This document shows positions 9,396 through 11,982 of a stretch of DNA of 59,414 bases, one piece after another; the stretch's first letter is position 1; each line of letters starts with the position of its first letter. Below the pieces are notes generated by a model. It was not told the DNA's origin. It searched no databases and saw only the letters and a list, made by a program, of their open reading frames with translations. The stretch lies in NCBI GenBank assembly GCA_009861545.1, contig VXME01000118.1, positions 1-59,414 on the forward strand, given 5' to 3'. The DNA comes from Acidobacteriota bacterium. GTDB taxonomy: Bacteria > Acidobacteriota > Vicinamibacteria > Vicinamibacterales > UBA8438. The translations under genes were made by a program, and so were the position numbers.

Positions 9396-9950
9396 TCAGT
9401 TGCCCGCGCCGACGTACTCGAGCGCGAAGTTCTTCAGCGGGACGCTCCGCAGGCCGATCGCTTCTGCCTCGGCGGTTGCGTCCTCCACCGAGTAGCCGTC
9501 CTGCTTGACGCGCTTGATCAGCCACATCGCGCCCACCCGATTGGCGGAGCCGCAGTGGATGTAGACGGGCTGATTGGCCGGCTCGCCCACCGTGTCGAGG
9601 AACGCCTCGGCGATCTCGGCGGTCGGCGTGCGGAACGGCAGGTGGACGTAGTTGAGGCCCGCCGCCTCGGCCGCCGCGCGGCTGTCGTCGATGTTGGCTC
9701 CCTGCTCGCCCGGGGTCCGGAAGTTGACGATGGTGCGGAAGCCCCGTTCCTGCAGCACCGCCAGCGCCTCGACCGGGGTGGCCCCGGCGCAGGCGACGGT
9801 GGCGTCGACGCGCGTGTAGTTGCGGACCCCTTCCGGACCCTCTTCCGCCTGGAAGCTCGGCGCCTGGGCGCCGGCCGGAACCGCGCTCCCGGCGAGCAGC
9901 AGCGCAGCGGCGAAGACGACGAGAACGACGCTGATTCTTGACTCTTGCAT
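9396..9950 (-). CDS. Secreted protein-tyrosine-phosphatase-like protein
   Basis: This 184-aa protein has an N-terminal signal peptide (hydrophobic SVVLVVFAAALLLAGSAV, cleavage near AGAQA). A DSP/BLH-type phosphatase fold follows, with FRTIVNFRTPGEQG and the P-loop HCGSANRVG, which fits the Cx5R motif. It probably acts in the periplasm on a phospho-substrate or sulfur compound. I chose ATG 9950 because of the signal peptide. A TACAAT lies 8 nt upstream, so the mRNA may be leaderless. It precedes the decarboxylase gene in the same direction. Confidence 0.8.
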   Translation of the reverse strand: MQESRISVVLVVFAAALLLAGSAVPAGAQAPSFQAEEGPEGVRNYTRVDATVACAGATPVEALAVLQERGFRTIVNFRTPGEQGANIDDSRAAAEAAGLNYVHLPFRTPTAEIAEAFLDTVGEPANQPVYIHCGSANRVGAMWLIKRVKQDGYSVEDATAEAEAIGLRSVPLKNFALEYVGAGN

Positions 9951-9958
9951 GGTCCCCG

Positions 9959-9964
9959 ATTGTA
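9959..9964 (-). promoter_or_regulatory. -10 element TACAAT for the secreted phosphatase
   Basis: TACAAT on the minus strand ends 8 nt before ATG 9950. This is the same spacing as at the MatC-like permease and again predicts a leaderless mRNA. The -35 region shows no good match. Confidence 0.5.
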
Positions 9965-10026
9965 GCATCGGGGACGCGAAGTGCCCGGCGCCGCGCGATC
10001 GCGGCCGGAGGCGGAAGGAGCCGCTC

Positions 10027-10491
10027 GTGCCAGACGTCGTACATACCAGCCGCATGCGGATAGATCGGGTCAAGGGACCCATCCGCGAGATGTTCCTCGA
10101 CGGGTTCGACACGCCGATCCGGTTCGGCGTGCACGGGGGCATCAAGAAGTTCTACGGGGTGGAGCCGGACGAGGACGTGCCCGCGACGCTCGACTACATG
10201 GTCGGCGCCGTCGGCGGTTGACTGCTCGGCACCCTTGCACGCGCACTGGAGGTGCGCGACATTCCGGCGCCGCCCGACAAGATCACCGCCGCCGTCGAAG
10301 GCGACATCGAAGCTATCGACAAGGTGCTGCGCATCACGCGCATCCGCGTCCGCTACGACCTCACGGTCCCGAAGGGGAAGCGCGAGGCGGCCGAGCGGGC
10401 CGTCGAGCGGCACCCGACCGGGTGTCCGGCCGCCAACAGCGTGGCCGGCTGCATCGAGCTCGACATCCAGGCGGACATCACCGAGGAGTAG
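10027..10491 (+). CDS. OsmC family protein, predicted selenoprotein (Sec at TGA 10219-10221)
   Basis: The reading frame starts at GTG 10027, six bases after the ribosome binding site AAGGAG (10015-10020), and runs 154 codons to TAG 10489-10491 with one in-frame TGA at codon 65. The text before the TGA (IRFGVHGGIKKFYG, TLDYMVGAVGG) and after it (LLGTLARALEVRDI, HPTGCPAANSVAGCIEL) is one continuous OsmC/Ohr-fold protein. The TGA lies exactly where OsmC proteins have the peroxidatic cysteine. OsmC-like selenoproteins are a known class. A SECIS-like hairpin follows the TGA. The protein would reduce organic hydroperoxides with an active-site selenol. The DUF255 gene downstream is translationally close. 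Confidence 0.85.
10240..10258 (+). promoter_or_regulatory. Bacterial SECIS-like hairpin
   Basis: A perfect 7-bp stem (CGCGCAC, 10240-10246, with GTGCGCG, 10252-10258) closes a 5-nt loop UGGAG. The loop begins 25 nt after the TGA and has G at its second position. Both spacing and the early loop guanine fit the bacterial SECIS pattern recognised by SelB. Confidence 0.7.
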
Positions 10492-10497
10492 CCGCCG

Positions 10498-11982
10498 TTG
10501 CCCGCGGCGACCACCTGCCTCGTCGAGTGGCGGCCGTGGGGGCGCGCCGCCTTCGACGAGGCGCGCGCCGGGCAGGTCCCCGTGTTGCTGGCTCTGGGAC
10601 CGGGCTGGTGCCCGGCGGGTGCCGCGATGCTGCGCGGGGCGTATGCCGATACCGGTGTCGCCGATCTGCTGGACGATCGGTTCGTGCCGATCCGGGTGGA
10701 CGCGGACGAGCACCCCGACGTCGCGGACCGCTACGGTCTCGGCGCCTGGCCGACGACCGCGTTCCTGACCCCGGACGGTCAGGTTCTGGGCGGGGAGACC
10801 TACGCGACGGCGGAGAGGATGCGGGACCTGCTCCCGCGCGTCGCCGACGCGTTCGAGCAGCAGCGGGACGCGATCGCCGCGCGCGGCGCAGCGTCTGCCG
10901 CGCAACCGGCCGTTCCGGCGGCCGCCGCCCCGGATCCCGACGTCGACGCCTGGCTCGGAGACCGCCTGCTGGCGCAGTTCGACGACGAGCACGGCGGCTT
11001 CGGCGACGGGGTCAAGCGGGTCCACGGCGCCGCCCTCGAGCTGGCGTGGCGCCGGGCCGGGGACGGTGACGAAGCGTTCGGCGCGGTGTTCGAACGCACG
11101 CTCCGGGCCATGGTCCGGGGCGGGCTCTACGACGAGCTCGACGGCGGCGTGTTCCGCTACTGCGCGCGCCGCGACTGGACCGCGCCGGCGACCGAGAAGC
11201 TGCTCGCGGTCAACGCCGACGCGCTCCGCCTCTTCCTGCTGCCCGACGACGACGGCTGCCTCGATCGGGCCATCGGCGTGGTCGGCTACGTGCGGCGCAC
11301 GCTGGCCGACCCGGCGCCGGACCATCCCGGGTTCTTCGCCAGCCAGCGAGGCGACCCCGACTACTACCGGCCGCGGGCGGCGGCGGATGCACCCGCGGCC
11401 GGGCCGCCCGCCGTCGACCGTGCCGTCTACGCCGACGGCACCGCCCTGATGGCCCGTGCGTTCGCCGCCGCGTCGGAGACGCTGCGCGACTCGTCGCTGC
11501 TGGAGTTCGCCGTCGACGCGATGGAGCACGTCGTGGCGGGGACCTACGAGCGCGGCGGCGGGATCGCCCACCGGTCCGGCTCCCGCACCGGCGTCCGGGG
11601 CCTGCTCTCCGACCAGGTCCGGGCCGCCGCGGCGCTGCTCGATCTCCACGCGCTGACCGACCGCGAGGTCTATCTCGACATGGCCCAGGAGCTGATGCAC
11701 TTCGCCATCCAGCATCTGTGGGACCCGAGCGGAGGCGGCGGTTTCCTCGACCGCGTCCACGGCCCGGAGGACATCGGTCTGCTGCGGGAGCCGCTGCAAC
11801 CGTTCGCCGTCAATTGCGAGGCGGCGCGCGTGCTTCTGCGATTGGCGACCATCACGGCCGACCCCGCGTTTCGGGATCGCGCCGTCGCCACCCTCGCCGC
11901 GCAGACGGCGGCCGCCCGCGCGCACGGGGTCGACGCGGCGCCGTACGCGCTGGCCATGCGCGATCTGCTCGATGTCGACTGA
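10498..11982 (+). CDS. DUF255 / YyaL-like thioredoxin-fold and glycosidase-like protein
   Basis: This 494-aa protein begins at TTG 10498, nine bases after GAGGAG (10483-10488) at the end of the OsmC gene. The N-terminal 110 residues match the DUF255 thioredoxin-like domain (RVDADEHPDVADRYG, WPTTAFLTPDGQ). The usual CHWC motif is reduced to GPGWCPAG, leaving one cysteine. The remainder is the alpha-helical (alpha/alpha barrel) domain, with FDDEHGGFGDGVK, GGLYDELDGGVFRY and TEKLLAVNADAL. At 494 aa it is shorter than the usual 650-700. Function is unknown; pairing with OsmC suggests redox or stress work. Confidence 0.82.
   Translation: MPAATTCLVEWRPWGRAAFDEARAGQVPVLLALGPGWCPAGAAMLRGAYADTGVADLLDDRFVPIRVDADEHPDVADRYGLGAWPTTAFLTPDGQVLGGETYATAERMRDLLPRVADAFEQQRDAIAARGAASAAQPAVPAAAAPDPDVDAWLGDRLLAQFDDEHGGFGDGVKRVHGAALELAWRRAGDGDEAFGAVFERTLRAMVRGGLYDELDGGVFRYCARRDWTAPATEKLLAVNADALRLFLLPDDDGCLDRAIGVVGYVRRTLADPAPDHPGFFASQRGDPDYYRPRAAADAPAAGPPAVDRAVYADGTALMARAFAAASETLRDSSLLEFAVDAMEHVVAGTYERGGGIAHRSGSRTGVRGLLSDQVRAAAALLDLHALTDREVYLDMAQELMHFAIQHLWDPSGGGGFLDRVHGPEDIGLLREPLQPFAVNCEAARVLLRLATITADPAFRDRAVATLAAQTAAARAHGVDAAPYALAMRDLLDVD

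Follow-up and report, generated by a model that had tools for sequence, protein, structure and literature searches.

A predicted selenocysteine-containing OsmC-fold protein of Vicinamibacterales and its relatives in other phyla

Described OsmC selenoproteins and the Vicinamibacterales locus

OsmC-like selenoproteins with the motif UxxT, in which U denotes selenocysteine (Sec), were described from the Sargasso Sea (Zhang 2005, PMC1088965), and a 2026 selenoprotein catalogue of 119 families enters OsmC once, as UxxT. Here we analyze contig VXME01000118.1 of assembly GCA_009861545.1, 59,414 nucleotides of DNA (hereafter, the window) from an Acidobacteriota bacterium of the order Vicinamibacterales, in which a gene at 10027–10491 is predicted to encode an OsmC-fold selenoprotein of a different type (hereafter, Sec-OsmC), with the motif U[LM]xGT. 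An earlier note on this DNA had proposed a selenocysteine OsmC peroxidase at this position, with one in-frame TGA at 10219–10221 inside an otherwise complete gene that a standard gene caller would split. The coordinates proved right: with the TGA read through, the protein matched PF02566 (OsmC) at 41.9 bits (gathering cut-off, 27.5) over residues 52–147, and a whole-genome family search recovered the locus and showed a single TGA inside it. The predicted split is also real, as the translation table 11 list of open reading frames divides the gene into 9820–10221 and 10252–10491. The features considered below are as follows.

10013–10020, plus strand: Shine–Dalgarno-like sequence GGAAGGAG, read directly, with AGGAG at 10016–10020, 6 nt ahead of the GTG start
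10027–10491, plus strand: predicted osmC-type selenoprotein gene, 154 amino acids, GTG start and TAG stop (10489–10491)
10219–10221, plus strand: in-frame TGA, predicted Sec65, aligned with the peroxidatic cysteine of OsmC and conserved in all orthologues covering the site
10240–10258, plus strand: hairpin of the bacterial selenocysteine insertion sequence (SECIS) type, CGCGCAC-UGGAG-GUGCGCG, identified from folding energy and covariation
10423–10425, plus strand: codon of Cys133, the predicted resolving cysteine, equivalent to the second conserved Cys of OsmC and invariant in our alignments A1 and A3
10498–11982, plus strand: gene of a DUF255/Thioredox_DsbH protein (PF03190, 84.4 bits), a neighbour and probably not a dedicated partner

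One of the closest described systems is represented by the protein family model NF041052 (OsmC_like_Se), which, judging by its motif, is likely the published UxxT family. Its members and the window protein both belong to the OsmC superfamily, have Sec in place of the peroxidatic Cys and have a bacterial SECIS. However, NF041052, which has a cut-off of 95 bits, gave the window protein 20.2 and, at E 0.001, matched nothing in the genome to which the window belongs, and the members of alignment A3 matched it weakly (best E, 3.6e-6). The motifs also differ, the window protein having U-L-L-G-T and the NF041052 type ULLT, as seen in locus L192; one genome (G499) holds both a true NF041052 member with U-L-L-T, which fits UxxT, and a gene of the window subfamily. 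NF041052 furthermore has one Cys form (L193), whereas none was found for the window subfamily. The 2026 catalogue treats different Sec motifs within one domain as separate subfamilies, and by this rule the U[LM]xGT proteins form a subfamily of their own, set apart from UxxT by motif and model score and not by direct comparison with the UxxT representative MCS5647933.1. This subfamily is not in the 2026 catalogue, and in the open-access literature we found OsmC selenoproteins solely as the UxxT family.

Two further described groups share the OsmC fold. The OsmC/Ohr hydroperoxide reductases (PF02566, TIGR03562 and TIGR03561) share with the window protein the fold, the redox positions 65 and 133 and a conserved Arg, but the window protein has Sec rather than Cys at the first position and falls far under the TIGR03562 and TIGR03561 cut-offs. 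The SACOL1771 family peroxiredoxin (TIGR03563) shares the OsmC fold and weak similarity, its model giving the window protein 18.5 bits (cut-off, 166).

A third type of Sec-OsmC was seen in other Acidobacteriota (L223 at G223:C46 and L224 at G280:C136). These proteins are YhfA-like, with the motif LLLAALG[TA]UTS[IM]T, and have TGA at the catalytic position where close relatives have Cys.

Conservation of the in-frame TGA and the SECIS hairpin

We surveyed the TGA in partly overlapping sets comprising the order, the phylum, the Bacillales and named genomes. Within the order (162 genomes), a single TGA was present in 48 of 48 matches spanning the site, and the matches without it were fragments ending short of the site or weak general OsmC hits. 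Across 396 genomes of Acidobacteriota, all 32 matches of at least 120 bits that covered the site had one TGA; the only other match above 60 bits (84.9) was a fragment beginning past the site, the next (53.7 bits) had the TGA, and below these came general OsmC hits of less than 40 bits without it. All 47 full-length matches in 397 genomes of Bacillales, the order of a Rossellomorea strain, likewise had one TGA, with general OsmC hits beginning at 53 bits or less. Among named genomes, the TGA was found in all of the best 80 of 446 confirmed relatives, which included several classes of Acidobacteriota, Methylomirabilota, Rokubacteria, Deltaproteobacteria, metagenome-assembled genomes (MAGs) of Actinomycetota and one Hydrogenedentota MAG, as well as isolates of Marinithermofilum, Alkalihalobacillus, Alkalicoccus, Mesobacillus, Cytobacillus and Rossellomorea. 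No orthologue covering the site had Cys there in the order, phylum or Bacillales surveys or in these best 80 of 446 relatives.

The earlier note had described conserved sequence on both sides of the TGA, and had named varied sense codons in relatives, or decay downstream, as outcomes that would speak against its reading. Neither was seen: no relative had a sense codon at the site, and the sequence past it is conserved. In comparisons with eight relatives, dN/dS was 0.03–0.23 upstream of the TGA and 0.13–0.61 downstream, and the latter values indicate that the downstream half is also under purifying selection.

The hairpin starts 18 nt past the TGA, and its loop is separated from that codon by 25 nt. 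It comprises 7 bp plus a U–G closing pair and has a folding energy of −12.6 kcal/mol (z, −2.7), which none of 200 shuffled sequences equalled. With a loop of 5 nt, UGGAG (3 nt if U–G closes), and a stem of 7–8 bp, it agrees with the published bacterial SECIS model (PMC13188914). In 38 distinct sequences from the order, pairing was kept in 97.4% of stem cells (88.7 ± 1.2 in shuffles) and 25 cells had changes on both sides (10.0 ± 2.1 in shuffles); none of 500 shuffles reached the observed value for either measure, and versions of the stem slid along the sequence paired at 63% or less. The clearest compensatory case is GCAC-UGGAG-GUGC to GCGC-UGGAG-GCGC, a change from A:T to G:C in which the substitution in the 3′ arm turns Val into Ala. 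Codon usage is also skewed, the Ala codon eight codons after the TGA being GCA in 35 of 48 genes compared with 47 of 764 Ala codons elsewhere in the same genes. The minimum free energy of the 51-nt stretch that follows the TGA, compared with synonymous recoding, gave a mean z of −0.66 over 102 sequences; because this measure is weakly informative in GC-rich DNA, we relied on covariation instead. A search with Rfam at gathering thresholds found no SECIS in the window. The 7-bp hairpin with loop UGGAG at SECIS spacing that the earlier note had picked out both fits the published model and covaries.

Since the TGA recurs in every examined orthologue and almost the whole order has the hairpin, we regard the feature as more than chance, and the reading of the TGA at 10219–10221 as selenocysteine is strongly supported by these sequence comparisons. 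If the TGA were instead a true stop, the locus would be a pseudogene or two short genes, as its division by a standard gene caller might suggest, but the same TGA recurs across several phyla, purifying selection acts on both sides of it, the SECIS covaries and the OsmC fold spans both halves. We rejected this explanation on these grounds and assign it a negligible probability.

In several mostly deltaproteobacterial members (L113, L128, L140, L142, L143, L154 and L158), the same gene has a different, earlier hairpin of the type UGGCCA-CGGUGC-UGGCCG, and in many deltaproteobacterial members a complete 7-bp hairpin with CGGUGC in its loop lies nearer the UGA. The position of the SECIS therefore appears to have moved during evolution. 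Two Bacillales copies look broken, one with a split frame and two TGA codons (G615:C43) and the other with an extra TAA (G877:C1), which suggests that the gene is lost via decay and not via change to Cys.

Catalytic site, selenocysteine machinery and proposed reaction

We aligned Sec-OsmC with 20 orthologues and with OsmC proteins of the Cys type. Codon 65 (TGA) coincided with the first conserved, peroxidatic Cys, as expected from the earlier proposal that the TGA replaces the catalytic cysteine, and Cys133, within a CP motif, coincided with the second. The two conserved redox residues that characterize the OsmC superfamily, the second of them a Cys in CP, are represented by U65 and C133, both invariant; the other invariant residues in alignment A3 were Arg20, Asp56, Gly68, Thr69 and Pro134. 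An AlphaFold model of Sec-OsmC had the OsmC fold (mean pLDDT, 97.3), and the best-ranked 50 structures in a Foldseek search of the PDB, with E values down to 5e-10, were OsmC or Ohr proteins save a few unnamed structural-genomics entries.

The machinery for Sec, for which we searched family by family, is present in the window's genome: SelA (C35:19037-20116, 434 bits), SelB (C24:203-970, 274 bits, a fragment cut by the contig end), SelD (C27:2688-3599, 294 bits) and a tRNA-Sec with anticodon tca (C154:32096-32188). A second, partial SelA match lies on a short contig of the same genome (G000:C112:1836-2210). SelA was found in all 16 sampled carriers outside the window's order, which represented several phyla, and within the order in 44 of 48 carriers compared with 82 of 114 non-carriers (Fisher p = 0.006, relatedness uncorrected). 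A genome-wide reassignment of TGA, for example to Trp or Gly, or a sequencing error would also place a TGA within a gene, and we found no evidence supporting either. The neighbouring gene at 10498–11982 terminates in TGA, normal TGA stops occur in the window, a Sec tRNA with the matching anticodon is present, and the same codon appears in independent assemblies; both explanations were rejected and seem to us extremely improbable.

A catalytic-site TGA that is conserved and flanked by sequence under selection, the covarying SECIS, the Sec machinery, the OsmC fold and the invariant Cys133 make it very probable that the gene encodes a Sec-containing redox enzyme of OsmC fold, in which SECIS-directed Sec65 would reduce peroxide and be resolved by Cys133. 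We propose that the hairpin at 10240–10258 would recruit SelB with Sec-tRNA at the UGA, placing Sec at residue 65. The selenolate of Sec65, as the attacking residue, would become a selenenic acid by reducing a peroxide; as for OsmC/Ohr, the substrate is probably an organic hydroperoxide. Cys133 would resolve the selenenic acid to a selenenyl sulfide, which might then be reduced by a dithiol, for instance dihydrolipoamide or thioredoxin. Sec insertion itself, the peroxidase reaction, its substrate and its reductant are predictions of this scheme, the chemistry being modelled on the OsmC/Ohr family. Of the earlier designation as a selenocysteine OsmC peroxidase, the Sec-OsmC part is supported, and the peroxidase activity is suggested by analogy with the OsmC/Ohr family.

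Several points weigh against this interpretation. Sequence similarity to characterized OsmC/Ohr proteins is low (10–19% in the fold matches). One account of the OsmC/Ohr family (PMC5962072) locates a conserved Arg and Glu in the active site, and the window protein has Asp56 rather than Glu close to where the active-site acid of Ohr lies. SelB is incomplete in the assembly, and four carriers in the order had no good SelA match, three of them incomplete genomes and the fourth (G102) 93% complete. A selenoprotein with another redox role is a possibility that we hold to be considerably less likely; it might act as an oxidoreductase of thiols and selenols, reduce some other electrophile, or use the OsmC fold to carry selenium or sulfur. 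The OsmC, Ohr and SACOL1771 models all scoring far below cut-off, the conserved U[LM]xGT motif with a distinct N-terminal region, and the exclusive use of Sec in all surveys would agree with such a role; on the other hand, both catalytic OsmC positions are kept (Sec65 and Cys133), and the invariant Arg20 has its counterpart in Ohr.

With respect to its distribution, we consider it reasonably likely that Sec-OsmC represents an uncatalogued OsmC subfamily that is obligately Sec-dependent, whose genes fall into decay and do not acquire Cys, and that spans Acidobacteriota, Methylomirabilota/Rokubacteria, Deltaproteobacteria, Actinomycetota MAGs and Bacillales isolates. Cys homologues are numerous for most bacterial selenoproteins, and homology-based discovery, which requires known Sec or Cys counterparts (PMC12013277), leans on Cys/TGA pairs; the apparent absence of a Cys form may therefore explain why the subfamily was overlooked. 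A widespread Sec-only subfamily would escape Cys/TGA searches and be misannotated as truncated reading frames, which would raise the question of which chemistry here is beyond cysteine, and its members in culturable Bacillales make that question open to experiment. It would also suggest a candidate antioxidant role for selenium in Sec-using soil and marine Acidobacteriota and bacilli.

Genomic neighbourhood of Sec-OsmC

The DUF255 gene at 10498–11982 follows Sec-OsmC directly, with a gap of 6 nt in the window, and the same arrangement holds throughout family f1 wherever the contig extends far enough. The earlier note had taken this linkage to suggest a redox pair. The adjoining gene is real and its proximity would be consistent with a dedicated pair, but no DUF255 neighbour was seen in the other families or phyla examined, and most of the partners have, rather than CxxC, a single WC with no further Cys three positions along; in L040 and L088 even the Cys of WC is lost (WS). 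Given the confinement of the linkage to f1 and the CxxC mostly absent, the pairing is poorly supported, and we regard it as unlikely. No neighbouring gene was conserved across phyla, and a plasmid search with a Bacillales member of Sec-OsmC gave no match. Upstream of Sec-OsmC, on the minus strand at 9396–9950, lies a gene conserved across part of the order, encoding a divergent sulfurtransferase/phosphatase-like protein that resembles TIGR01244 and Blh with scores below their cut-offs.
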